DNA of 36,916 bases from a virus, in the IMG/VR virus record IMGVR_UViG_3300023174_000372, positions 1 through 36,916 of that record. One strand, written 5' to 3'. The translations under genes and the position numbers were made by a program. Each line of letters begins with the position of its first letter. Within the stretch, counting starts at the first letter, position 1. Below, piece by piece: positions 3,895 through 36,869 of the stretch. The notes under the pieces are model-generated. The model was not told the DNA's origin. It ran no database searches and was given only the letters and a program-made list of their open reading frames with translations.

Positions 3895-4179
3895 ATGTAC
3901 GACAGATTATTAAAATTAAAAGAAGACAAAAAATGGCTTTATTATTTACTATTGTTGCCAATTTTTGTGTTGACAATATTAGAAATATATAATAAATACT
4001 TAGTAAACAGTGGTAAAAATATTATAAAAGATGCTGAAAAGGACGATAAAAAATTGGAAAAAAAACAAAACAAAGCAGAACAAGCTGCTGAATTTCATGA
4101 AGAAAAAGCAAATAAAATAAAAAAAGAATTAAAAAATATTGAAAAGAAAATTGATAAAAATTGGCACTTAAATGAATGA
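3895..4179 (+). CDS. Membrane-anchored coiled-coil protein
   Basis: This 94-aa protein has a short basic N-terminus, one transmembrane segment at about residues 15-33 (WLYYLLLLPIFVLTILEIY), and a long, strongly charged Lys/Glu heptad-like helix to the end. This is the general plan of an inner-membrane spanin, or of a membrane-tethered scaffold or holin accessory protein; the sequence alone does not decide between them. A TAGGA ribosome site at 3885-3889 precedes the ATG. The 3' end overlaps the start of the next gene, a CPBP-like membrane protein, by 8 nt (ATGAATGA), so the two are probably translated together. No endolysin gene is visible nearby, which weakens a lysis role. Confidence 0.65.
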   Translation: MYDRLLKLKEDKKWLYYLLLLPIFVLTILEIYNKYLVNSGKNIIKDAEKDDKKLEKKQNKAEQAAEFHEEKANKIKKELKNIEKKIDKNWHLNE

Positions 4180-4717
4180 AGTTATTGAAAAATTTTTTAA
4201 TATTGTAGATATAATAAACTACGCCTATCCTATACTTTCCCCGGTTATTTTTGTATTAGTATTATTATTTGACAGAGAAAAACTGTCCGTAAAGCTGGAT
4301 GGTGTTGCAAAATTTTTGGCTCTACTCACCATAGCTGGTGCGGTTAAAATATGTCTATGGAACGGACAAATGGTAGTATCCAATCCGCACAATATATCAC
4401 TGAGTAACTTTTTGCTTGTATTTCTTGAAGATGCTTTTTATGTGATGGTGCCTTTTTATATCACCAACAGAATGAGTAACCCAAAACATAAGTTTTTTGT
4501 CTGGCTTTTCTTTACTGTAATATTTGGAGTTGCTCATAGATACCAAGGAATTTGGGCTATTTTTGTAACAGCAACATATCCATATTTTATATCTAACAAT
4601 TTTGCAAGAAAAACTTCTTTTGGTACAGTAATGGCTTGTCATTTTTTGTATGATTGTTTTGTAACTTTTCTGCCAAAGCTTAATAACTTGTTTGTTTTAA
4701 TAGATAAGATTAAATAA
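4172..4717 (+). CDS. CPBP (CAAX-protease-like) intramembrane metalloprotease homologue
   Basis: This 181-aa protein has about five or six hydrophobic segments. Three polar motifs sit in the order known for the CPBP/Abi family (CAAX prenyl protease 2 type): Glu86-Asp87 in place of the EExxxR pair, FxxxH at Phe118-His122, and HxxxD at His157-Asp161. The family uses these Glu and His residues at an intramembrane active site. The Arg of motif 1 is missing and the second Glu is Asp, so activity is uncertain. The gene is translationally coupled by an 8-nt overlap to the membrane coiled-coil gene, a candidate partner or substrate. CPBP proteins in bacteria include bacteriocin self-immunity and abortive-infection factors. 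A role in superinfection exclusion or membrane-protein processing here is speculation. Confidence 0.6.
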   Translation: MNEVIEKFFNIVDIINYAYPILSPVIFVLVLLFDREKLSVKLDGVAKFLALLTIAGAVKICLWNGQMVVSNPHNISLSNFLLVFLEDAFYVMVPFYITNRMSNPKHKFFVWLFFTVIFGVAHRYQGIWAIFVTATYPYFISNNFARKTSFGTVMACHFLYDCFVTFLPKLNNLFVLIDKIK

Positions 4718-5664: not shown

Positions 5665-6345
5665 ATGAAAATGGTTATCGGATTAGTTGGCGTTAAAACA
5701 TCGGGAAAATCTACTGTTGCTACTATTATTAAAAATATTCTTAAGCATGAACAAGTGACAGAAGCAGCATTGGCTGATAAGTTAAAAAATGTATGCTCTA
5801 TTGTTTTTAATATCCCTAGAAATTACTTTGATGATCAAAAATTAAAAGAAGTTAGTTTAGGGAAACCTATATTGTTAACCATATCCGACATAAACAAAGT
5901 CATGGAGCTTTACAATATTTTTGACAATACAACTCCAGCAAATATAAAAAAAATACAAGGAAGTGCCGGATTTTTATTAGAAACTCCTAGACAAATTGCT
6001 CAAATTATAGGAACTGAAATACTCAGGGGTGTAGGAGATGAGGATATTCATTGTAAAAATGTTAAATTAAGTGAAAAAATAACAATAATATCCGATATAA
6101 GATTCCCAAATGAATTCGATTATTTTAATAAATTAGACAATACCTCCTTTCTCCCGCTTTATATTCAAAGAGATGAGGCAGAAAAACATGTGACAGAAAA
6201 ATCTCATTCTTCTGAAACTTCTGTGTTTAAATTTTCACACAAATGCGTAAAGATAAATAATAATAAAGACTTACAAAACCTGGAAAGTGAAATTAGAACA
6301 AATCTCCGTATTCGAGGATTTACATTAAAAGAGTATAATCTTTAA
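5665..6345 (+). CDS. Deoxynucleoside monophosphate kinase (T4 gp1-like)
   Basis: This 226-aa protein would phosphorylate dNMPs to dNDPs in the cytoplasm and so feed phage DNA synthesis. A P-loop is visible near residues 6-17 (GLVGVKTSGKST), followed by a helix. The segment TIISDIRFPNEFD near residue 145 is the typical SDxRFxNE element of phage dNMP kinases and related adenylate-kinase-like folds. Length fits the family (T4 gp1 is 241 aa). A GGAG ribosome site ends 8 nt before the ATG; a second in-frame ATG two codons later is less well placed. It is odd to find this nucleotide-metabolism gene inside the tail gene cluster and not in the replication block at the right end. Confidence 0.75.
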   Translation: MKMVIGLVGVKTSGKSTVATIIKNILKHEQVTEAALADKLKNVCSIVFNIPRNYFDDQKLKEVSLGKPILLTISDINKVMELYNIFDNTTPANIKKIQGSAGFLLETPRQIAQIIGTEILRGVGDEDIHCKNVKLSEKITIISDIRFPNEFDYFNKLDNTSFLPLYIQRDEAEKHVTEKSHSSETSVFKFSHKCVKINNNKDLQNLESEIRTNLRIRGFTLKEYNL

Positions 6346-6359
6346 ATAAAGGTAAAAAA

Positions 6360-7760
6360 ATGTCTTTAAGCAAACAAGATAGAATTGAGCTTTCTTTAAA
6401 ACTTTCAGGAGCAAAAGAAGATATTGCTAACATGGATAAGTTAGCAGAAGTCTTTGAACAAGCCAAGGTTAAGGCTCAACAAAAAGATTCTCCCAATAAA
6501 AAACTTTTAGATGAAAGAACTGCTCTTGTAAATGCTTATCAAAATGAACTGGTTTTTTTAGATGGAATAGTTAGAACACAATTAGTAGAATATATGATCG
6601 TGGACTCGGCCAAAAGGGTCGCCGGAAATCATTTTTTCCCTAACCAGAACAATGTTTCGCTGCCGTCCGTTCCGACAGGGATATGGACAGGTTTTTCGCC
6701 TTTATCAAGAAACTATGCCATAGGTAAAACTCACCTTGAGACATATACCTCTACCGGAAACAGAACAGAACAAAACATTATAGCTGATATAAATGCTAAA
6801 ATAACTTTAATAGAAAGCAAAATAATTGCCTCAAGAGCAACCGGTAAAAAAGGACAAACTACAGGAACTTGTAGTGGGGAAACTCCCGCAGGGTCTGGTA
6901 CTACACAAATTCTGTGTACTACAAAAGGAGGAACCTGGACCCCAGGACCTGATATATTTGTAAATGATACAGATACCCAACAATTGTTAACGGACCTTAA
7001 AACACTAGTTCAAGAATGGGAAAATATATTAAATAGTCAAAAAAGTATTCTGATTTCCATTTCTGACTTAAACAGTTCTAGAAAAACACAGAACTTGAAT
7101 GCCACTACCAATATTGACGACTCCATATCTGTAATAAATAACTGGCAATCTATACAGGATTATGACACGACAACACCTCTTCCTTCAACAATAGCTGCCT
7201 TTAATGCTTTGCTTGAAAGTTATTTTCAACAAACAAAAATGCAACCAACTACCTTGCAACTATTAAAAGATAGACTAACACAAAGACTAGTTTTTGCAAA
7301 TGCAAGAAAAGATCAGTTAACCACGACTTACCTTGGTTCTATAACACAAGATATGAGCGAAGGAGAAATATACTCAACAACTGGTCTTTATGGAGAAAGA
7401 ATGCTTTTTTTGGACATGAGAATAAATGCTTCCGGTGGAACTTTAACGGAAGTAGTTAGTTTTTCTAATTCCAAAGGTGCCCAGGAAAAAACTAAAAAGT
7501 CCATTAATATTGCAACTCAAGGAGCGGGATTGGTTATGAAAGCAACCAAAGCTTCTGCTCCAGGAATTGACACATTTTATATGAATTTTGAAGATCTTTC
7601 AGGATTTGCTGTTGGAGATAGCGTTTATTTAGTGGCAGATGACCAAGAAGAGCTTTTAGGTAAAATTCAAGAAATAATTGGGAATAGAGCAAAACTTTCT
7701 TTTTCAGTTCCTAAGAAATATACTACCATAAACAATACCAGGATCTACAAGATTTTATAA
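6360..7760 (+). CDS. Putative virion structural protein with disulfide-type loop
   Basis: This 466-aa protein is not assigned to a named family. The first 85 residues are helical and probably coiled coil. Residues 85-130 are Gly/Pro/aromatic. Another helical region follows, interrupted by a Gly/Thr-rich loop at 160-200 holding the only two cysteines (Cys171, Cys186) in a C-x14-C then GGTWTPG pattern. The C-terminal 60 residues (VGDSVYLVADDQEELLGKIQ and onward) form a strand-rich module. Its place between the spike region and the gp25 fusion suggests a baseplate or tail component. An AAAGG ribosome site precedes the ATG by 7 nt. Its stop codon abuts the stop of the reverse gene 7755-8318 (TTATAA). 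Confidence 0.6.
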   Translation: MSLSKQDRIELSLKLSGAKEDIANMDKLAEVFEQAKVKAQQKDSPNKKLLDERTALVNAYQNELVFLDGIVRTQLVEYMIVDSAKRVAGNHFFPNQNNVSLPSVPTGIWTGFSPLSRNYAIGKTHLETYTSTGNRTEQNIIADINAKITLIESKIIASRATGKKGQTTGTCSGETPAGSGTTQILCTTKGGTWTPGPDIFVNDTDTQQLLTDLKTLVQEWENILNSQKSILISISDLNSSRKTQNLNATTNIDDSISVINNWQSIQDYDTTTPLPSTIAAFNALLESYFQQTKMQPTTLQLLKDRLTQRLVFANARKDQLTTTYLGSITQDMSEGEIYSTTGLYGERMLFLDMRINASGGTLTEVVSFSNSKGAQEKTKKSINIATQGAGLVMKATKASAPGIDTFYMNFEDLSGFAVGDSVYLVADDQEELLGKIQEIIGNRAKLSFSVPKKYTTINNTRIYKIL

Positions 7761-26161: not shown

Positions 26162-26911
26162 ATGGCAAGAGTGTTAATTAGTAAAACATCAATAACGGGA
26201 GAAGTAAAAGCATTTGCTGGGTCAGCAGCGCCAGAGGGGTATTTGTTTTGTAACGGTCAACCCATTAGTAGAACTGTTTATGAAGAGCTATGGAATGTTT
26301 TAGGAACATCTCACGGTCAGGGTGATGGAAGTACAACTTTTAATTTGCCAGATTATCGTGGAACTTTCTTAAGAGGAAAAGTTGATATAACAACAGTTAC
26401 TGGCAGCGGAGCTGTTTCTTCTAACAATGTCACATTTACTAATCACGGAATTAATAGGACAGGATTTAAAGTCAGGCTACAATCAGCAGGAGGTTTAACC
26501 GGATTAGCTCTTTCTACTGATTATTATGCTATTGTAATAGATAATAATACATTAGCATTTGCAACAACACTGACTAATGCTATTGCAGGAACAAAAATAA
26601 GTATTTCTGGAGCCGGTCCTTTAACTATTGTAATAACTCAATATGAAGATCCTGACGCTTCTTCAAGAACAGCATCAACTGTTGGTGGAAATAGTGGGAA
26701 TAGTATGGGAGCTAGACAGGGTGATGCCATTGGTCCTCACGTACATCCTATGAGATCTATATCTAGCGCTAACTATAGTGGTGGTGGATCTAGTAATACC
26801 CCAAGAGCAAATTCTACAACGGATAATAACTGGGATACTTACAACAACGTAGGCGCAGGTAACGAAAATCGTCCACAAAATTCATTAATTAATTATATTA
26901 TTAAATACTAG
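26162..26911 (+). CDS. Tail collar domain fibre protein with inserted domain
   Basis: This 249-aa protein carries the phage tail collar fold: GEVKAFAGSAAPEGYLFCNG (residues 13-32), then STTFNLPDYRGTFLRG (57-72). It ends with a His193-x-His195 pair, of the kind that binds metal in T4-type fibre needles, and ENRPQN-YIIK. Compared with its two paralogues at 27133 and 28968, it has about 88 extra residues (74-162) between FLRG and DPDASSRT, a beta-rich unit with STDYYAIVIDNNTLAFA, a module known from other phage fibres. The protein is likely a fibre tip or short fibre that contacts the host. An AGGA ribosome site lies in the same GGAATAATATATGG leader that precedes the gene at 30500. Confidence 0.75.
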   Translation: MARVLISKTSITGEVKAFAGSAAPEGYLFCNGQPISRTVYEELWNVLGTSHGQGDGSTTFNLPDYRGTFLRGKVDITTVTGSGAVSSNNVTFTNHGINRTGFKVRLQSAGGLTGLALSTDYYAIVIDNNTLAFATTLTNAIAGTKISISGAGPLTIVITQYEDPDASSRTASTVGGNSGNSMGARQGDAIGPHVHPMRSISSANYSGGGSSNTPRANSTTDNNWDTYNNVGAGNENRPQNSLINYIIKY

Positions 26912-26918
26912 GAGATAT

Positions 26919-27131
26919 ATGCTATTCCATAAATTTGATGCAGAAACTAAAATTTTTATAGAAAGTATAGAGTCTGAAGAACAACCTGAAAACTCTATAC
27001 CAGGGTCTTTACCCGACATAACAGAACACTACACGGTGGCTTTTATTGGTGACGAATGGGTGTCTGTGTTAAAGCCCGAGTATGAAATTTTAGATAATAA
27101 AATAGAATTAAAACAACAACAAGAGCAGTAA
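26919..27131 (+). CDS. Small protein, possibly fibre assembly-related
   Basis: This 70-aa protein begins LFHKFDAETKIFIESIE and contains NSIPGSLPDITEHY and GDEWVSVLKPEY. That order (FDxET, then a proline-containing NsiPGxLP-T, then a single W) resembles the N-terminal part of small tail fibre assembly proteins, which help fibres fold but are not in the virion. It lies between two collar-domain genes with gaps of 7 bp and 1 bp, consistent with such a role. The match is by pattern only. The C-terminus is Gln-rich. A GGAG ribosome site precedes the ATG. Confidence 0.45.
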   Translation: MLFHKFDAETKIFIESIESEEQPENSIPGSLPDITEHYTVAFIGDEWVSVLKPEYEILDNKIELKQQQEQ

Positions 27132-27132
27132 C

Positions 27133-27693
27133 ATGGCAGATAGACGACGAAATTTAGGCATACCTTCTGGAGTAGTTTTTCCGTTTGCGGGTACTTCAGC
27201 TCCTTACGGATATTTAATATGCGACGGAAGACCTGTTTTACAATCGGAATACCCTAATTTATTTTTAAGTATTGGATTTTCTCACGGCGATGGATCTCAA
27301 AATTCGAACGGCACGGCTTCCGGTTTTACTTCTGCAACTCATTTCAATCTTCCAGATTACCGGGGAAGGTTTTTGAGAGGTGTAGACGGACTTGCTGGAG
27401 TTGATCCTGATAAAGCTTCAAGAACAGCTCCTAGAGCTGGCGGTAATACTGGCAACACCGTAGGATCAGTACAAGCAGATAGTAACAAACTACACGGGCA
27501 TTCTGCAAGATATTCAGCAGATACTGATGGTGATAATAACGGTGGTTTGGTTATAGGTAATCAGATAACAGTAGGAAATGAACCGGCTTATACGGGAACT
27601 CCAGGAAATACCCGGGGTCAGCAAATAGGCGGAGATGGTGGTAACGAATCTCGTCCTAAAAATGTAAACGTAAATTATATTATAAAAATATAA
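27133..27693 (+). CDS. Tail collar domain fibre protein
   Basis: This 186-aa paralogue of the proteins at 26162 and 28968 has VVFPFAGTSAPYGYLICDGR near the N-terminus, HFNLPDYRGRFLRGVDG in the middle, DPDKASRT, a His-x-His pair (GHSA preceded by LHGH), and the closing ESRPKNVNVNYIIKI. It lacks the inserted domain of the first copy. The collar fold forms small trimeric tips on fibres of many phages. Between the conserved segments, the Gly/Asn/Asp-rich stretch at about 130-165 differs between paralogues and is the likely surface-exposed variable part. It starts 1 bp after the preceding gene. Confidence 0.75.
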   Translation: MADRRRNLGIPSGVVFPFAGTSAPYGYLICDGRPVLQSEYPNLFLSIGFSHGDGSQNSNGTASGFTSATHFNLPDYRGRFLRGVDGLAGVDPDKASRTAPRAGGNTGNTVGSVQADSNKLHGHSARYSADTDGDNNGGLVIGNQITVGNEPAYTGTPGNTRGQQIGGDGGNESRPKNVNVNYIIKI

Positions 27694-27701
27694 GGTAAAA
27701 T

Positions 27702-28955
27702 ATGAGTTCAATCGCAAAAGCAAATATTTCTCTTAGCAAAAAAGATCTTATAAAGTCTAGGATTCCTCCTGTTGCTTCCAGAAATGTTATATTCTATCAC
27801 AAAGCAACTCTGGGTGATTTGTCTATTAATTTATTGGCATTATCTATGCCTTCTGCTGAAATGCCGACAGCAACCCAGGCAACAAACTCAGAGATTTCTG
27901 GCGCTCAGTTAATTATTAATAAAAAAAATCTTGACCTTACTTCTTCTTCTAAGGGAAAGCTGATTCAAGATCTTGATTATATTATAATAGATTCTTACAC
28001 AATTTCTCTTACAGGTCCTTATATTGGTATCGGGGCAGAGGTTGATGAAATTTTTGTTGGAACAATTAATTCAGCTCCTGTTTCTGATCTTGTTGTGGCA
28101 TCGGCTAAAAGCGTGGATAAAACGTATGAATTGGCGATAGGAAGTACAATTCTAAATCTAGGAAGAGAGTACAAGGTTGGAGAAAATCCTTCCGAAGACG
28201 TTGGTAGTATTAAAGTATTTGTTAACGGCATATTAGCATTAAGAGGAATTGATTATAATGAAGTAGATAGCGGGAATGGATATGGGACAACTATTCAATT
28301 TGCCGTTGCTCCTGTAGGAACTTCTCATCAAGTGGTCGTAGATTTTGGCGTGATGAGTATCACAGATAATAATGCAATTGGGGCTATTGAGAATTTAGCC
28401 GGAAGTATTAAAAAAATAGCTGATGACTTAGCTGTTGTGGCTGGGACTGCAGCAAATGATTATTACAGCGCATCTCCTAGTGAAGTTGAGAGAAGAACAT
28501 TTGGAGACATGGTTTTAAATTTAGATTATAAATATGACACAAGTTTAAAACTAAGCGAATATATAAAAACAAAATATCAAGAAAAAATATTGTCATCCAA
28601 CACCAATTCAAATGGAGCTGTTTTAAGTGATCTAACTTTTAACAATCTTGTTATAGGCAAAAGATATAAATTAACCACTAAATGGGTAGCTAAAACCGGA
28701 GATGCCACTGAATATAACCTTATTATTAATAATGGCCCAACTACAATAGACACAGTTAAATGCAGAGGCGAAACTGGTTCAGCAGGTTCTGGAGGTGCTT
28801 TTATGAGTATTATTTATTTTATAGCCGGTAGTACTACTTTAACCTTTACTCCGTCTGGAATAGCCGCCGGACGCTTGGGTTATGGTGGTGCCGGACAAAC
28901 TAAAGCTATTCTTGAAGAGGCTACTAATCATGAAGAAACTACACAATGGACATAA
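27702..28955 (+). CDS. Tail fibre protein
   Basis: This 417-aa protein is beta-rich, with a short helical part near residues 230-250 (ENLAGSIKKIADDLAVVAGT) that could be a trimer coiled coil. The segment SPSEVERRTFGDMVLNLDYK follows, and a C-terminal domain (about 305-400) begins NGAVLSDLTFNNLVIGKRYKL, in the style of jelly-roll tips on phage fibres. The N-terminal half has strands such as IKVFVNGILALRGIDYNEVD, seen in phage fibre shafts. It is likely a receptor-binding or shaft protein in the fibre gene cluster. An AAGG ribosome site lies 7 nt before the ATG. The exact family is not recognised. Confidence 0.62.
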   Translation: MSSIAKANISLSKKDLIKSRIPPVASRNVIFYHKATLGDLSINLLALSMPSAEMPTATQATNSEISGAQLIINKKNLDLTSSSKGKLIQDLDYIIIDSYTISLTGPYIGIGAEVDEIFVGTINSAPVSDLVVASAKSVDKTYELAIGSTILNLGREYKVGENPSEDVGSIKVFVNGILALRGIDYNEVDSGNGYGTTIQFAVAPVGTSHQVVVDFGVMSITDNNAIGAIENLAGSIKKIADDLAVVAGTAANDYYSASPSEVERRTFGDMVLNLDYKYDTSLKLSEYIKTKYQEKILSSNTNSNGAVLSDLTFNNLVIGKRYKLTTKWVAKTGDATEYNLIINNGPTTIDTVKCRGETGSAGSGGAFMSIIYFIAGSTTLTFTPSGIAAGRLGYGGAGQTKAILEEATNHEETTQWT

Positions 28956-28967
28956 TAAGGTAAATAT

Positions 28968-29537
28968 ATGGCACAAACAGCATTAAGACGAGGAACCCAG
29001 GAAGACGGAAATACGGAATATTTTACCGGATGTCCTATTGGCGGAGGATTTATTTGGTATGGACTTCCTGATAAAATTCCTTCTAATTGCAGAATATGCG
29101 ATAATTCAACATTAGCTATTTCTAGTTTTGCAAAGCTATATGAAAATTTAGATGGTGCATGGGGAGAATCTGGTACAAATATGAATCTCCCAGATTTAAG
29201 AGGAAGATTTCCTCGGGGAGTGGATGGAGATGCTTCTCGTGACCCAGATAAAGCCTCAAGGTCGGTTGCGAATACTGGAGGTAACTCTGGGAATGCGGTA
29301 GGGTCTGTTCAGACAGATGCCGTACAGGGTCATGAACATATTATCTCTGGTCAGAACATTATTGGTACTGGTGGTGGCAGCTTTGGACCTACTGGTAATA
29401 ACGTCGATGGGACAACTCAAAACATGACTAGAAGAGCTACATCTTTACAAAGCAACGGGACCCAAGGAACTCCTAGAACCTCTTCTGAAACTCGTCCTGC
29501 CAACGCAAACGTATATTTCGTAATAAGGGTAGAATAA
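28968..29537 (+). CDS. Tail collar domain fibre protein
   Basis: This 189-aa protein is the third collar paralogue: MNLPDLRGRFPRGVDGD, DPDKASRS, GHEH as the His-x-His site, and the closing ETRPANANVYFVIRV. Its N-terminus (ALRRGTQEDGNTEYFTGCPI) differs from the other two, so it may attach to a different fibre. The variable Gly/Thr-rich part lies between GHEH and ETRP. It is part of the same forward operon, with an AAGG ribosome site, and ends 1 bp before the next gene. Confidence 0.75.
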   Translation: MAQTALRRGTQEDGNTEYFTGCPIGGGFIWYGLPDKIPSNCRICDNSTLAISSFAKLYENLDGAWGESGTNMNLPDLRGRFPRGVDGDASRDPDKASRSVANTGGNSGNAVGSVQTDAVQGHEHIISGQNIIGTGGGSFGPTGNNVDGTTQNMTRRATSLQSNGTQGTPRTSSETRPANANVYFVIRVE

Positions 29538-30499: not shown

Positions 30500-31132
30500 A
30501 TGGCATTTTCTAGAATATTACAAGATTTATTAGAACAAGATAAGTTTGCAAAATTTACTAAAACAAGCGATACAACGGCTACGTTAGGATCTTTAACTTT
30601 AAATACTGCTATTTTAGGAGCAGGCGGGCTTGATACAGGTTCTATTGCAGCCTCAACTCTTTATTATGTTTATACAATAGTAGATAGTAATAGTATAAAA
30701 CTAATAGCATCTATTTCTTCAACATCTCCGACAGGATTTACTCAGTACAAAAAAGTAGGAGCTTTTTATACAGATACAAGTTCAAATATTTTTAAAGCAT
30801 ATTTTTATGGCGAAATCAATCAAACAGTTTTTAGTGCATATTTTCAATCAAACGGAACAGCTGTAGGGCAGACTCCTATTAACTGGGTTTCTAGTTCTTC
30901 TAATTCTTCAGGCTCTCTTAATATAAATTTATTACCGGGTATATTTTCAGTAGAACCTAGATTATTAGGTAATAGAGCTGGTTCTGGCGGAGGTACAGTA
31001 GCTACGGTCGCAACAGGAGGCAACGCTTTTTCTATTTTATTAAGTCAAGGTAACACACAACTAAATCCTCATCAAGCTTTAATTCAAAAAGCAGGTATCG
31101 ACGCTGCTCAACCAGATTGGTCAAGGATTTAA
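30500..31132 (+). CDS. Tail fibre protein (last gene of the forward structural block)
   Basis: This 210-aa protein has LDTGSIAASTLYYVYTIVDS followed by SIKLIASISSTSPTGFTQYK and KKVGAFYTDTSSNIFKAYFY, a well-known strand pattern of phage tail fibre domains. The C-terminal 50 residues are Gly/Ser-rich and end HQALIQKAGIDAAQPDWSRI. The N-terminal 20 residues (FSRILQDLLEQDKFAKF) form a short helix. It is preceded by the same GGAATAATATATGG leader as the first collar gene. Its stop codon shares bases with the stop of the reverse gene 31129-31386 (TTAA), so there is no space for an intergenic terminator. Confidence 0.65.
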   Translation: MAFSRILQDLLEQDKFAKFTKTSDTTATLGSLTLNTAILGAGGLDTGSIAASTLYYVYTIVDSNSIKLIASISSTSPTGFTQYKKVGAFYTDTSSNIFKAYFYGEINQTVFSAYFQSNGTAVGQTPINWVSSSSNSSGSLNINLLPGIFSVEPRLLGNRAGSGGGTVATVATGGNAFSILLSQGNTQLNPHQALIQKAGIDAAQPDWSRI

Positions 31133-31388: not shown

Positions 31389-31682
31389 CTATTCTAGATC
31401 TTCCAGTCTAACGTCTGAGTTTTCTAGTATTTCATGATATTCTCCAGCAATCTGTTCTATGATTGCTGACAAAATTTCTGATTCTTTTTCGCTTAAAATA
31501 TGATAACCTTCCGGAAGAGCCACTTTTGTACCAGGACTGATATTGGTATTGTATTTTACATACTGTCTAAGAAGATTGCTGAAGTCGTGCATTGCAATGT
31601 ATGCATTGGTTGCGTTAACGCTTCTTTTATGAGCAAGTCTGTCCGAATGTTCTTCTAAATCAAATTCAAGTATTGCTTTCAT
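31389..31682 (-). CDS. Conserved phage hypothetical protein (97 aa)
   Basis: This 97-aa protein begins MKAILEFDLEEHSDRLAHKR. A start of the type MKAxLEFDLxE followed by a helix with an LRxxxKY element (here LLRQYVKY) is common in a small, widespread phage protein family without known function. The C-terminal half is helical and acidic. It sits 2 bp upstream of the 85-aa gene and 21 bp downstream of the 72-aa gene. An AAGAGA ribosome site precedes the ATG. Confidence 0.6.
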   Translation of the reverse strand: MKAILEFDLEEHSDRLAHKRSVNATNAYIAMHDFSNLLRQYVKYNTNISPGTKVALPEGYHILSEKESEILSAIIEQIAGEYHEILENSDVRLEDLE

Positions 31683-31703: not shown

Positions 31704-31922
31704 TTAAGTTTGTTTCCAGTACTGGAAGTCCTTTGTCTTTATTTCTATATTATCAGTTCCGTCATATCTTTTGCCTGGGATAACTACAACATTTCTTGTG
31801 TGTTTATTGATCCATTTAATAAGTAATTTTGATCTTTTATGATCAGAAAATCTAACCTTAATTACAAGAATATCAAGATCTTTTGATGTAAGGTGTCTAT
31901 AAACATGTCCTGATTTAAACAT
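31704..31922 (-). CDS. Hypothetical basic protein (72 aa)
   Basis: This 72-aa protein starts MFKSGHVYRHLTSKDLDILV and has a small, all-beta look (HVYRHL, ILVIKVRF, LLIKWIN, VVVIPG) with high Lys and Arg content. No function is recognised. An upstream in-frame ATG at 31934 would overlap the aminotransferase gene by 11 bp; the ATG at 31922, just after that stop, with GGGA 6 nt before it, is preferred. Confidence 0.55.
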   Translation of the reverse strand: MFKSGHVYRHLTSKDLDILVIKVRFSDHKRSKLLIKWINKHTRNVVVIPGKRYDGTDNIEIKTKDFQYWKQT

Positions 31923-31923
31923 A

Positions 31924-32907
31924 TTATTTCCCATCCTCTTTGATTATATACCTGATCGCTTTTTTTGTCAAGTCATTAGTTTGAGCTAAATTGAATCGTA
32001 AAAATTTATCATTACCCATACTGTCCATTTCTACGGTTTTAATATTTAATTTATCCAATAACCTAGAAGTGTAGGGAGATGCCCATACTGCGTAAAACAT
32101 GCCGTTTTCTGGTACGGATTGACCATCAAACAAATAGCATATTCGGTCAAACATTTCCCTGTTGTTATTTACACGGTAGCGTGATGCTCTCATAAAAGAT
32201 ACAATATCAGTATTTTTTATTAAATCTAGAACAAAGCTTTGAGAAAAATATGAAACAGAGCATGTGTCGTACATATTTTCTTCTTTAAATAAGGAATAAT
32301 CCTCGTCATTGTTTGTGGCTATCCATCCAATTCTTGCGCCTGTTATTCCGAAGCATTTACTAAAAGATCCACAATTAACCCGATGGTCCGGTTTTACAGG
32401 AATGGTGTTTATAAAAACCGAGTTATGGTAAACACTATCCCATATGATATTATTGTGATTATCTGTGTATAACAATAGATCACCCAAAGGGTTTGACGGA
32501 CTATCTACTATTGCTAAGGATTTTTTTTCACCAAGCTGTATTTCGTGATCTCTGTATAAACCCATCTTTTGCTGATAATTATTTTTTTTAATAATACTGG
32601 GGTAAAATGGAAAGTAATACTTGTGAGTGTAGCATATACTATAACCGTGCCTGCGCTGTAACGATCTTAGCACAATATTAACAGCACTGGTTGTGCCGTT
32701 GGTTATTATTAAGTGCTTGTAATCTATGCCTGTTTCTTCTTTCAAAAATTGCTTGGTAAATTTAACCAAGTCCGGATCTCCCTCGTAGGACTGATACCTT
32801 ACAGCATCAATGTCTACAAAAGAATAATGCTTTTTTTTATAATAGTGTTTAAGAGCCTCTCTTACGCAGTAAGGCTCCCCCCAACAAAATTTAAACTCTT
32901 CTGTCAC
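31924..32907 (-). CDS. PLP-dependent aminotransferase, class I/II (fold type I)
   Basis: This 327-aa enzyme shows the full set of class I/II aminotransferase marks in order: TNGTTSAVNIVL at 69-80 (cofactor phosphate region), SNPLG at 138-142, the Asp157-x-x-Tyr160 pair in WDSVYHN, the cofactor Lys184 in SFSKCFGITGARIGW, and Arg304 in FLRFNL for substrate carboxylate binding. It should transfer amino groups between an amino acid and a 2-oxo acid; the substrate cannot be told from sequence. Length is slightly below the usual 350-400. The start is GTG, overlapping the upstream stop as GTGA, with GGAG upstream. It sits in the replication operon, where a role in base modification or metabolic reprogramming is conceivable but not shown. 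Confidence 0.85.
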   Translation of the reverse strand: MTEEFKFCWGEPYCVREALKHYYKKKHYSFVDIDAVRYQSYEGDPDLVKFTKQFLKEETGIDYKHLIITNGTTSAVNIVLRSLQRRHGYSICYTHKYYFPFYPSIIKKNNYQQKMGLYRDHEIQLGEKKSLAIVDSPSNPLGDLLLYTDNHNNIIWDSVYHNSVFINTIPVKPDHRVNCGSFSKCFGITGARIGWIATNNDEDYSLFKEENMYDTCSVSYFSQSFVLDLIKNTDIVSFMRASRYRVNNNREMFDRICYLFDGQSVPENGMFYAVWASPYTSRLLDKLNIKTVEMDSMGNDKFLRFNLAQTNDLTKKAIRYIIKEDGK

Positions 32908-33365
32908 TGTTTTTTCTCCAAACTTTTGTCTAAATCTTGAATCATTTTTTTTAAATATTCTAAAGAAAAGTCTTGTTTAATTTTATTAACTTTTTCATTA
33001 ATTTGTGTAATTTCTTCTACAGAAATATTGTAACTATTTGAAATTTCTTGTACTTTTTCATCAAAATACTTTTTGTAATCTTTCTCAAATTGCTCCGCAT
33101 GCACGGCCTCTTTTACAAAAAAATCTTTAACAAAGGTGTCATGCTTTGGGCTAAAATAGCACGTACGACAAACGTGTGTTTTACTGCCAGGTTCTATACT
33201 CATGTTTATCCAGGCGTGAGGTCCTTTGCATTTGTTTTTTTCTAAGTCTTTAATTTTTGTATTTATTTGTATTCTTGATTTAATGTTTATATAAAGAACC
33301 TTAGCAAAATATACAAATAAAATTAAATTTATTAAAATTATAATGACCAGAATAGTTTCAGCCAT
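32904..33365 (-). CDS. Membrane-anchored zinc-binding protein
   Basis: This 153-aa protein has one N-terminal transmembrane segment (residues 3-25, ETILVIIILINLILFVYFAK). A putative zinc site follows, made by Cys46 and His50 (CKGPHAW) with His64, Cys66 and Cys69 (HVCRTC). The C-terminal 75 residues form a long, charged helix likely to be coiled coil. The start at 33365 is preferred over 33386 because it has GAGGA 5 nt upstream and gives an 8-nt overlap (ATGGCTGA) with the upstream ClpP-like gene. It also overlaps the aminotransferase gene by 4 nt. Function is unknown; coupling to both neighbours suggests linked expression. Confidence 0.62.
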   Translation of the reverse strand: MAETILVIIILINLILFVYFAKVLYINIKSRIQINTKIKDLEKNKCKGPHAWINMSIEPGSKTHVCRTCYFSPKHDTFVKDFFVKEAVHAEQFEKDYKKYFDEKVQEISNSYNISVEEITQINEKVNKIKQDFSLEYLKKMIQDLDKSLEKKQ

Positions 33366-34074
33366 TTTTATCCTCAATCTTGTCAATTAAATTAAGTTCT
33401 AAAGCAGTCTCCGCATCTATTATAGTATCAAAATTTAACATCTCTTGAAGTTCTTTTCTTCCGATTAGAATTTTTTTATGCTTGGCATTGCCCGAAGGAA
33501 TCTCTGACTGTTTTCCTATTAGTATTAAATATTTTTCTAGCGTTATTTTTTTATCGTTCATTTTGTCAAGATATATGTCTTCCATTATGTTATCAAATTT
33601 CTTGGTTTCACTGGCCCATTTGTACATTGTTTTGGTATGATCATGTATACCAAAACTCCCGTAATGTATCATAATTCTTGAATGTTTTGTCATAATTCTT
33701 TGATCAGCCGATTGCAAAATTATTGACCCCATGCTCATAGCATGTCCGTAAACCCTTACAGTTACATGGTTTTTACAATTAGCAATTGCATCATAAATAG
33801 ACATCCCGTGGTAGATCTCTCCTCCGATATTGTTCATGATAATATTAATTGGCTTATCACCTTTAATAGAAGTAGCGTCTTGATTGTCCAAAATATGCAG
33901 AGCCTTGACCACTGTTTCGGCCATGCGAAAATCTGTGCCGCTTTCTCCTTCTTCGTCAGAACTACTCATACTTCCCATATATATAGTTCGGGTAGGAAGA
34001 TAGATGTGGTTGTCCATAAACTGATCAACATCATCTTTTTTAAACTTGTGATAAACATCTAAATCATCACTCAT
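33358..34074 (-). CDS. ClpP-like serine protease (peptidase S14)
   Basis: This 238-aa protein aligns by eye with ClpP. TRTIYMGS at 28-35 corresponds to the ClpP N-terminal strand and NNIGGEIYHGMSIYDAI at 81-97 to the SPGG region. The catalytic Ser is Ser114 in GHAMSMGS, the His is His137 in SRIMIH, and Asp216 in DTIIDAETALELNLID sits where ClpP has its catalytic Asp, so the triad looks complete. In phages this fold serves as head maturation protease or as a regulatory protease. Here it lies in the replication block, away from any visible head gene, so a prohead role is less evident. It follows the primase gene by 2 bp and overlaps the next gene by 8 nt. Confidence 0.8.
   Translation of the reverse strand: MSDDLDVYHKFKKDDVDQFMDNHIYLPTRTIYMGSMSSSDEEGESGTDFRMAETVVKALHILDNQDATSIKGDKPINIIMNNIGGEIYHGMSIYDAIANCKNHVTVRVYGHAMSMGSIILQSADQRIMTKHSRIMIHYGSFGIHDHTKTMYKWASETKKFDNIMEDIYLDKMNDKKITLEKYLILIGKQSEIPSGNAKHKKILIGRKELQEMLNFDTIIDAETALELNLIDKIEDKNG
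33371..33375 (-). promoter_or_regulatory. Ribosome binding site that sets the start of the membrane zinc protein
   Basis: GAGGA on the reverse strand ends 5 nt before the ATG at 33365, inside the end of the ClpP-like gene. Confidence 0.5.
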
Positions 34075-34076
34075 AA

Positions 34077-34895
34077 TTATCTCGTTATTTTATCAGCATA
34101 ATTCCAGCCTGATTTAATGGCGGTCAACCATTCTCTTTCTTTAAAGTCAGACTGTTCTTGAAAAAACTTCTCTAAGTATAATATCGTAGAATCCAGATCA
34201 TATCCGTTCAAAGCAAATTCACACCCGATAGACATCCATCTTTGGTTTCTAGATCCTTCCATATTATGAACACCGTCAAACAAAGCCTTAAGAACCCATG
34301 GCTTTATTCCTTCAAAATTAGGTACTTGGCTTCTTCCTTGGTTTCTTATGATGGGTTTGGGTTGTTTGTCTATATGTTTGTTTAGCCATTCTGCCAATTT
34401 TTCAAATTTAACTCTTTCACCCATATGTACAAGTCTTTGTTCTTTTCCAGTATCTGATCTTACAACACCAGGAAAACGAATTGACCGGCTAGGGTTTTTT
34501 GTTAATTGATCGGCTTTTGTTAAAATATTCAAAATCCACTGGTAAGTGTGTCTATAAATGTGGGAACTGGGAATGTCGCAGTCAAGTACGAGAGCAAAAT
34601 GTAGAGATTTATTGCCTGAAAAGCAACAATAAGAATAAGGGAAACCGCTGTCTTTAATATATTTCCATTGATTTTCAAGGGCTTCATCATCACACTCCAC
34701 CATAAATGTTCTATAGGCTGTTACGTTTTCGTCATTTCTTTGACCCTTAATGGGATTTATTGCCACAAGAATTGTTTTTTCTTCGTCAAAATTTTCTTGA
34801 GAATTACTTGGATAAGCATATTTATTGGGAGAAAAACATATCTCCTCTTCCGGATTAAAAAACAAATTTAAAAAATTTTTAGTTGTTTGTTTCAT
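34077..34895 (-). CDS. AEP-family DNA primase (PriS/PrimPol-like)
   Basis: This 272-aa protein would make primers for phage DNA replication. It has the archaeo-eukaryotic primase marks: an acidic motif in FMVECDD (67-70), the SGNKSLHF motif at 93-100, and SIRFPG at 138-143 followed by a KEQRLVHMG strand. The C-terminal part (about 190-272) is helical, with RNQRWMSIGCEFALNGYD, like the PriCT/D5-type tails of such primases. It overlaps the upstream helicase gene by 17 bp. The start is uncertain: ATG at 34895 lacks a close ribosome site, while an in-frame TTG at 34907 lies just after AGGA. Helicase and primase as neighbouring genes fit a shared primosome role. Confidence 0.75.
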   Translation of the reverse strand: MKQTTKNFLNLFFNPEEEICFSPNKYAYPSNSQENFDEEKTILVAINPIKGQRNDENVTAYRTFMVECDDEALENQWKYIKDSGFPYSYCCFSGNKSLHFALVLDCDIPSSHIYRHTYQWILNILTKADQLTKNPSRSIRFPGVVRSDTGKEQRLVHMGERVKFEKLAEWLNKHIDKQPKPIIRNQGRSQVPNFEGIKPWVLKALFDGVHNMEGSRNQRWMSIGCEFALNGYDLDSTILYLEKFFQEQSDFKEREWLTAIKSGWNYADKITR

Positions 34896-36054
34896 TTTTA
34901 TTATCAAATATCCTAGACAAATTCATTTCGGCGCTTTGTTCTTTTGTTTGTCTTATTACTTTTGATGCCGTAACCTGAGCATCGATTTGAGGTGTCCACT
35001 CCGAAAATCTTTGCATTTTTTTATCAAAGTACAGCACATGTCCTCGTAATAGATCTCCATGTCCAAATCTCACCTTATGGGCATACAGATATGACCGGCT
35101 GTTTTCAAAATCTTTTTTAAGTTCAATAATATCTGTAGCATAAATAATAATTGACTTACCACCCTTCCATCGATACATAGGGTGTTGAGATTCAAAATCT
35201 GCATCGTCCAGTTCTTGTTTATTTTTTTCGTTTCTCAAGCTGTCACACTGAGCCATTAGGATAATAGGGAAAGGTGCTGAATCTTTAAATACGTTAAGCT
35301 CACCTGCAAGAGCGTTGTTAACAAACCATGGATCTTGCGCCCCTATTTCGCTCACATTGACGTTGGTATAGTAATCAATAATTACAGCATCAAAGCTCCC
35401 CTTAGCCTTTTCTAGGGTTGCCATTACACCTTTTACCGTTGTTACTTTATAAGCATCTGATTCATTCTTAGGAGATATTACAACAAGCTTTGCGTCTTGA
35501 GACAAAAACTCTGCATCATTTAACACCTTTTCAATTTCTTCCCCAGAGCATCTATTAGTTTTGTAATCACCAAAAGATACTTTTGTTCTTAAACAGCTAA
35601 TCCTAGCCCTGACATCCTCTTCTTTTTCTTCGTTTGAAAGTATCAGTACTTTTTTGTTTTTGTTAACCATTGCCTCGGCTATATGTGCAGTGAGTGTAGA
35701 TTTACCATTGTTTGTCATTGAGGGAATGACTATCAAACTTCCTGGGGCGGCGATGAAATGTTTTGATATTCTTTCGTTCAAAAAAATGATGGCATTTTTT
35801 CTATCCTCAATGTCTTTTAACATTTTTTGTTTATCAAAACCTCTGGCTGTTAAATCTTCTTGTTGCAAATTGTTGTGAATTTTAGAAATTTTATCAATTT
35901 CACTTTTTTGCATCTTAAGTTTAATATTGTGAATATGAGCCTGAATCTCTTTGTTTTCTTCAACTAAGAGTTGAGTTTTAACATTTTTATTATACGACTC
36001 TTGAGCCGTTTTATAAAATTCTTCAGGTGTTTTTTTATCCGCATTATCAGCCAT
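34879..36054 (-). CDS. DnaB-like replicative helicase (RecA-type ATPase)
   Basis: This 391-aa ATPase probably unwinds DNA at the phage fork. The N-terminal 95 residues are helical and charged and do not look like a full DnaB N-terminal domain. The ATPase core has the Walker A variant PSMTNNGKST at 111-120 (Lys118), then VLILSNEEKEEDV (H1a-like, catalytic Glu), Walker B FDAVIIDYY at 221-229 (Asp227), and PIILMAQCDS at 263-272 as the H3-like sensor. An Arg-rich tail element is not obvious. The first Gly of the P-loop is replaced by other residues, as in some DnaB/UvsX relatives. It lies directly upstream of the primase gene. A RecA/RadA-like recombinase is the main alternative. Confidence 0.75.
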   Translation of the reverse strand: MADNADKKTPEEFYKTAQESYNKNVKTQLLVEENKEIQAHIHNIKLKMQKSEIDKISKIHNNLQQEDLTARGFDKQKMLKDIEDRKNAIIFLNERISKHFIAAPGSLIVIPSMTNNGKSTLTAHIAEAMVNKNKKVLILSNEEKEEDVRARISCLRTKVSFGDYKTNRCSGEEIEKVLNDAEFLSQDAKLVVISPKNESDAYKVTTVKGVMATLEKAKGSFDAVIIDYYTNVNVSEIGAQDPWFVNNALAGELNVFKDSAPFPIILMAQCDSLRNEKNKQELDDADFESQHPMYRWKGGKSIIIYATDIIELKKDFENSRSYLYAHKVRFGHGDLLRGHVLYFDKKMQRFSEWTPQIDAQVTASKVIRQTKEQSAEMNLSRIFDNKNETNN

Positions 36055-36068
36055 AATTGCCTATTTAA

Positions 36069-36869
36069 TTATCTTTTTTTCTTTGATAAAGATTTTTGAT
36101 GTAAAATTAAACTTTCTTTTTGAATCATTAAATCTTCTGGGTTTAAATTTGATTCGTTTATATTTTCTCTGTAAAAATCCTCAATAGCAAAGTAATTAGG
36201 TTTTTTATAGACCACCCTAACTACTTTATTATCCGGTGTTAAAAAAGATGTTTTATTTAAAGGTTTTAAATCTTTAAACATTTTTTTAAACTGTACTGCT
36301 TTTATCTTTTTGTAATCAACAGATTCGGGAGAAGTTAACAGACTATCGTCATCAGGGGTTTTACTAGAACTTCCAATAAAATACATCTTTTTTGCTTTGT
36401 CTCCGATTATGTTTGAACTTTTGACTTCACAAAATTTTGCAATTTCTTGTAATCTTTGATTTAAATATTTAGAAAGATTATAGCGTTCTCTTAAAAATAT
36501 ATCACGATCCGTAGGTTCGCTGTGGAATCCGTATTTGTTTTTATGATCAATTATAAATTTTTCCATCAAGTTCGGATTTTCTTTTAGTCCACCCATAGAA
36601 ATAAAGGATATGGTATTAATCCTTCCTATATTTTTAAGATCATCACTCTCAAATCCTACCAGCTTAAAGATTCTGATGTTTCTGTAATAAATTTTTTCTG
36701 AAATATTACAAATCATCTCCTCAAATTCTTTAAGCCTTTCTGGAGCAGGGTTTTTAGATTTTCTAAAATACCTATGCCTAAGATAAACAAGCTCAAAATA
36801 ATCGCTTGAGTTTATTTTCTTTTTGCTATTCAATTCCGGGTTGTCTAATTTTCTTAAAAAGTCAGTCAT
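36069..36869 (-). CDS. Putative phage sigma-like factor
   Basis: This 266-aa protein contains a segment resembling sigma-70 region 2: FELVYLRHRYFRK at about 25-37, a helix with two aromatic residues (KIYYRNIRIFKLVGFESDDL) and NIGRINTISFISMGGL, where the DDLKNIGRI element recalls the sigma EDLxQxGxIGL signature. Downstream are charged helices. The C-terminal 80 residues (PLNKTSFLTPDNKVVRVVYK and onward) are of unknown fold, and no clear region 4 helix-turn-helix is seen. If real, it could direct RNA polymerase to phage promoters such as the bipartite motif in this window. An AGGA ribosome site precedes the ATG by about 6 nt. The assignment is tentative. Confidence 0.4.
   Translation of the reverse strand: MTDFLRKLDNPELNSKKKINSSDYFELVYLRHRYFRKSKNPAPERLKEFEEMICNISEKIYYRNIRIFKLVGFESDDLKNIGRINTISFISMGGLKENPNLMEKFIIDHKNKYGFHSEPTDRDIFLRERYNLSKYLNQRLQEIAKFCEVKSSNIIGDKAKKMYFIGSSSKTPDDDSLLTSPESVDYKKIKAVQFKKMFKDLKPLNKTSFLTPDNKVVRVVYKKPNYFAIEDFYRENINESNLNPEDLMIQKESLILHQKSLSKKKR

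Follow-up and report, generated by a model that had tools for sequence, protein, structure and literature searches.

Discussion of auxiliary metabolism in phages has centred mainly on photosynthesis, carbon and nucleotides. The described enzymes that come closest to the gene reported here are class I aminotransferases of the AspAT type, from Thermus (1gck/5bj4) and Thermotoga (1o4s), and the plant L-tryptophan aminotransferase TAA1, which is close to alliinase (PF04864). In phages, a PLP enzyme belongs to the M6-like DNA hypermodification pathway, together with a pyrimidine hydroxymethylase, a kinase, aGPT-Pplases and a radical SAM enzyme (PMC9476957). Phage ClpP-like proteins include those of the head maturation protease PHROGs and the jumbo-phage ClpP, and host proteins have been proposed as targets of phage ClpP (PMC7824862). 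In the papers searched we found no description of a phage aminotransferase beside ClpP.

Such an arrangement occurs in the window analysed here, which is an entire 36.9-kb virus record (36,916 nucleotides) whose source is a virus of bacteria. On the minus strand, positions 31924-32907 form an open frame with 0 internal stops, and the same coordinates read on the plus strand are full of stops. The encoded protein matches Pfam PF00155 (Aminotran_1_2; E = 1.4e-14, 54.5 bits against a cut-off of 19.7), as do the proteins of all 10 records that carry the gene. It lies in a block of genes that run in the same direction, given here in the order of reading:

36069..36869, minus strand, 266-aa protein preceding the helicase, conserved in relatives, with no significant family match
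34879..36054, minus strand, DnaB-like replicative helicase (DnaB_C, 1.7e-11)
34077..34895, minus strand, DNA primase-like protein, 272 aa from the ATG at 34895 (phrog_2597, 7.7e-19)
33358..34074, minus strand, ClpP-like serine peptidase, 238 aa (CLP_protease, 2.2e-23)
32904..33365, minus strand, putative membrane-anchored zinc-ribbon-like protein, 153 aa (hydrophobic N-terminus and motif, the anchor being read from the sequence only)
31924..32907, minus strand, class I/II PLP-dependent aminotransferase, 327 aa, GTG start (open frame, Pfam, alignment, selection and model)
31704..31922, minus strand, small ORF starting 1 base past the aminotransferase stop, with no family match above cut-off
31389..31682, minus strand, 97-aa ORF, conserved downstream of the aminotransferase in contigs L001, L004, L007 and L011

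The original prediction, which placed the aminotransferase in an operon downstream of helicase and primase, agrees with this layout. It had also described the gene as co-translated with a membrane zinc protein and a ClpP-like protease. The end of the ClpP gene and the start of the zinc ORF (best placed at the ATG at 33365, which corrects an earlier reading) share 8 nt, the zinc ORF stop overlaps the aminotransferase GTG by 4 nt (GTGA), and the ATG at 31922 begins one base after the aminotransferase stop. The adjacency is thus confirmed and refined by the overlaps, which make coupled translation of the three genes likely. The ClpP-like peptidase scores 83.5 bits (cut-off 20.2), and its triad S114, H137 and D216 is invariant in 8 relatives. 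It thus has the fold family and triad of known phage ClpP-like proteins; unlike head maturation proteases, it is flanked by the primase and zinc-protein genes, outside the capsid/portal block, both in the window and in its relatives. In the zinc-ribbon-like protein, C46, H50, W52, C66 and C69 are invariant in 6 relatives, forming a C-x3-H...C-x2-C motif.

Several other features of the window were recorded. A T4-gp1-like deoxynucleoside monophosphate (dNMP) kinase precedes the baseplate genes (5665-6345, plus strand; phrog_139 6.8e-32, DNMK 1.7e-9) and is also found in G004. Several tail-collar-domain paralogues stand in a row (26162-29537, plus strand), and after them comes a protein whose second domain is Mtd (30500-31132); this region may be a receptor-binding cassette, possibly a variable one. 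A putative phage metallopeptidase (PF18894; 7755-8339) is encoded on the minus strand, opposite to the virion genes around it, and a membrane protein (4172-4717, plus strand) has a weak Rce1/CAAX-protease-like match below cut-off.

The aminotransferase carries the residues required for catalysis. The key residues originally listed for class I/II enzymes, namely S-N-P-L-G (138-142), D157, Y160, K184 and R304, are all present at those positions. In an alignment of ten sequences reaching down to about 30% identity, G10, Y38, N139, D157, Y160, S181, K184, R192 and R304 are invariant. These include the Schiff-base lysine (K184), the PLP-binding Asn, Asp, Tyr, Ser and Arg (N139, D157, Y160, S181 and R192), and the arginine for the substrate alpha-carboxylate (R304), which aligns with that of 1o4s. 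Around N139, P140 and G142 are invariant, S138 is nearly so, and L141 varies. Invariant positions specific to the family are I155-W156, P173, H175, W195-I-A, V265-P266, G269-M-F, N306 and Q309 in the same ten sequences; in L101, which is outside that alignment, the W156 position is occupied by L.

A ColabFold model built from the ten family sequences reached a pLDDT of 90.3 and a pTM of 0.89, replacing an earlier model from eight close sequences with a pLDDT of 49. Foldseek searches with the model retrieved aspartate and tryptophan aminotransferases (E about 1e-17 to 1e-16), and the model also resembles prephenate and kynurenine aminotransferases. VIA-align superposed it on Thermus AspAT with Z = 30.0 at 2.9 A over 310 residues, and the likeness to the Thermus and Thermotoga enzymes extends over the whole fold (Z about 29-30, ~310 residues) with the same PLP and substrate-carboxylate residues. 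The aminotransferase fold expected from the original prediction was thereby recovered in the model. Since the structural neighbours lie within 1-2 Z units of one another, the substrate is not assignable from the fold. Unlike the AspAT-type enzymes, to which it is only 15-19% identical, the phage protein is shorter (327 versus about 380 aa), carries the motifs IWDSVYH, GWIAT, VPxNGMFY and RFNLAQ, and was found here in phage contigs only. PHROG 5879, a 403-position phage family profile whose function is not annotated, gave a partial match covering residues 177-321 (4.9e-10). The protein is therefore a fold-type I (class I/II) aminotransferase, a well-known kind of enzyme, of a phage-specific family, and we infer transaminase chemistry and dimerisation.

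Relatives were identified in viral contigs at 81, 80, 64, 62, 47, 38, 35, 32 and 30% identity, and a further one (L101, 33%) was reached from the ClpP side, so that the family is present in about ten uncultured phage lineages. Motif matches in L051-L054 were judged by profile to be due to chance. Such enzymes had been described as uncommon in phages, and for this family a tblastn search of 50,697 phage records bore this out, returning no member and only generic matches of 20-27% identity to unannotated fragments; those in Listeria and Enterococcus phage records were left unused. No relative was found in 84,980 prokaryote genomes by two scans seeded with short conserved peptides, which a divergent cellular relative could escape. 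It therefore appears that only uncultured phages carry the family.

The gene is under strong constraint. The comparison of L001 with L002 gives a dN/dS of 0.051, and constraint on the aminotransferase is about equal to that on helicase, primase and ClpP, with the zinc protein evolving fast. The window and L001 share 81% protein identity with synonymous sites saturated. Synonymous differences above 0.75 in the aminotransferase were judged to be no signal but an artefact of how two-fold codons are counted when a gene is AT-rich. The reading frame is whole in every complete relative. Invariant catalytic residues, strongly purifying selection and a confident full predicted fold together support the original view that the enzyme is probably active. 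Decay of a gene transferred from a host, named at the outset as the outcome that would speak against this view, is contradicted by the purifying selection, the intact frames and the lack of a close cellular relative in the genomes scanned.

The neighbouring ClpP-like gene, mentioned only in passing in the original prediction, is the most informative clue. All aminotransferase contigs that cover the region have this gene upstream, in the same orientation as the aminotransferase. The two genes abut or have one small gene between them in the window, L001, L004, L010-L012, L032 and L057. The order ClpP, zinc protein, aminotransferase is shared by the window, L001, L004 and L010-L012; in L057 ClpP is followed by an overlapping aminotransferase, and in L032 a 101-aa ORF separates the two. 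Two genes intervene in L056 (ClpP with an intein, 108-aa ORF, zinc protein, aminotransferase). The distance is larger in L058 and L101, where several ORFs and an AAA ATPase follow ClpP and the aminotransferase is located about 2.6 kb and 4.1 kb downstream, respectively. It is largest in L047, with AAA ATPase, ClpP, zinc protein, peptide deformylase, and the aminotransferase 5.7 kb downstream of ClpP. By ORF counts, the chance that a random gene lies no more than two genes downstream of a ClpP is roughly 3-4% per genome, a figure from which we claim no combined probability, as the lineages are not fully independent.

These contigs showed further features around ClpP. Most of them have a second ClpP elsewhere, and one such paralogue has a signal-peptide-like start and occurs in a DnaE-type and a PolA-type phage (L065:17675-18652 and L088:7570-8331). 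A ClpX-like AAA ATPase is found in four contigs, and ClpX-like or other AAA+ ATPases in several of those with the aminotransferase; the ClpX-like proteins at L011:14049-15020 and L066:5354-6298 start at the AAA module, without the N-terminal zinc domain. The ClpP-like gene of L056 (7652-9151) contains an intein of ~267 aa (Intein_splicing 1.7e-10) immediately ahead of the CGG in its Gly-Gly motif. A phage chaperonin in G002 (C1:94491-97232, equal to L066:14491-17232; Cpn60_TCP1 9.7e-29) is split by a LAGLIDADG homing-endonuclease domain, probably also an intein. The deformylase of L047 (10619-11083) is a clear match (Pep_deformylase 3e-37), and in the matching stretch of its relative L060 an ORF that appears TnpB/OrfB-like by eye is inserted (6543-7739). 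A protein with a TEFETKYR-type N-terminal motif is common to L058 (7491-8255), L101 (9313-10092) and G002 (C1:13116-13766), near ClpP in two phages; the L058 copy has no Pfam match.

Because the operon also encodes a ClpP-like peptidase, the simplest role for the enzyme would be to recycle or rebalance amino acids released by proteolysis. The gene product would be a functional fold-type I PLP aminotransferase that forms homodimers and belongs to a phage-specific family. It would be produced from the helicase-primase operon along with the ClpP-like peptidase and, in most lineages, the zinc-ribbon protein. During infection it would carry out transamination between free amino acids and 2-oxo acids, so that amino acids freed by phage-directed proteolysis could be used or rebalanced. 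Of the options raised originally, amino-acid supply is now favoured. We hold the reading as a whole, in which the phage enzyme interconverts amino acids and 2-oxo acids as an auxiliary step coupled to phage proteolysis, tentatively and at somewhat less than an even chance, and we infer both the functional link with ClpP and the physiological role.

The enzyme might instead merely travel in the replication operon as an auxiliary gene, its position next to ClpP reflecting shared descent or phage gene exchange and not function. The helicase-primase-ClpP order is itself conserved in many of these phages, and synteny among the DnaE-type phages is partly due to shared descent of the operon; in both the window group and L058/L101, the ClpP and aminotransferase trees are concordant. 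ClpP of the same clade is also often found without the aminotransferase, which was present at 4 of about 18 best ClpP loci by profile, with flanks of at most 8 kb. ClpP therefore does not need the aminotransferase, which looks like an optional partner. Against mere co-travel, the pair is retained across a switch of replication module: as read from the sequences, the polymerase is PolA-like in the L032 phage, which also has T7-like virion genes, and DnaE-like in the window group. In addition, L056 combines a ClpP of the L058/L101 subtype with a zinc protein and aminotransferase like those of the window, weakly supported in the tree on the aminotransferase side; this mosaic hints at reshuffling. 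For these reasons we consider co-travel without function rather unlikely, and continue to prefer a role coupled to proteolysis.

A different chemistry was also considered, in which a fold-type I PLP enzyme acting as a C-S or beta-lyase, gamma-cyclase or decarboxylase would produce a small metabolite, a signal or a precursor. Among PDB sequences the family profile matches TAA1 best (3bwn, 5.1e-18), with AspATs next, and TAA1 and alliinase have the motif S-K-x-x-G-x-x-G-x-R-x-G-W in common with the phage protein. The alliinase model (PF04864, Alliinase_C) scores 35.6 bits on the window protein and 52.6 bits on that of L047, above its cut-off of 22, and the best NCBIfam match is a guanitoxin cyclodehydratase, which reaches only 50 of the 415 bits required. 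Identity to TAA1 and alliinase is 15-16%, the PF04864 match is limited to the core (residues 61-232), Aminotran_1_2 scores higher on the window protein, and nothing points to tryptophan or alliin as the substrate. Against another chemistry, every canonical aminotransferase residue is kept, including the carboxylate arginine, aminotransferases are the top structural matches, and no partner biosynthetic gene was recognised nearby. Another chemistry thus appears unlikely, and transamination remains our preferred activity.

The constant company of a peptidase, often with the membrane zinc protein too, would also suit a factor in counter-defence or regulation. Working with ClpP, such a factor might act on host proteins, which have been proposed as targets of phage ClpP (PMC7824862), instead of on free amino acids. 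Neither the aminotransferase nor ClpP matched a defence model, and a scaffold role would not need a full catalytic site, which makes such a function very doubtful. We give even less credence to a protease-coupled transaminase, formed with phage ClpP and perhaps the membrane zinc protein, that acts on a peptide or protein end or on a specific proteolysis product and has no known counterpart.

An amino-acid-derived moiety for hypermodified DNA bases was among the roles first suggested for the enzyme. The location in a replication operon, the PLP enzymes known in such pathways (PMC9476957) and the dNMP kinase in the window speak for it. The PLP enzyme of Pseudomonas phage M6 (gp052) is, however, of the PALP family and fold-type II, and apart from being a phage-encoded PLP enzyme it has no profile similarity to the present family (hhalign probability 0.2%). 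Searches for ADDT (amino acid:DNA transferase), HMUDK_hel (hmdU-DNA kinase) and thymidylate-synthase-like families found none in 11 contigs of up to 170 kb, which are possibly fragments, while M6, used as a positive control, was matched by all three. Radical SAM genes were absent from nine contigs, a weaker negative in that the M6 radical SAM enzyme itself falls below the Pfam cut-off. ThyX in L001 and the dNMP kinase of the window belong to ordinary nucleotide metabolism. Base modification is accordingly highly improbable for this enzyme, and a phage PLP gene of this kind need no longer be read by default as one for DNA hypermodification.

Our preferred reading, transamination of amino acids coupled to phage proteolysis, treats ClpP and the aminotransferase as a testable pair. 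If the link between them is true, this group of uncultured phages carries a protein-turnover and amino-acid-handling set within its replication operon.
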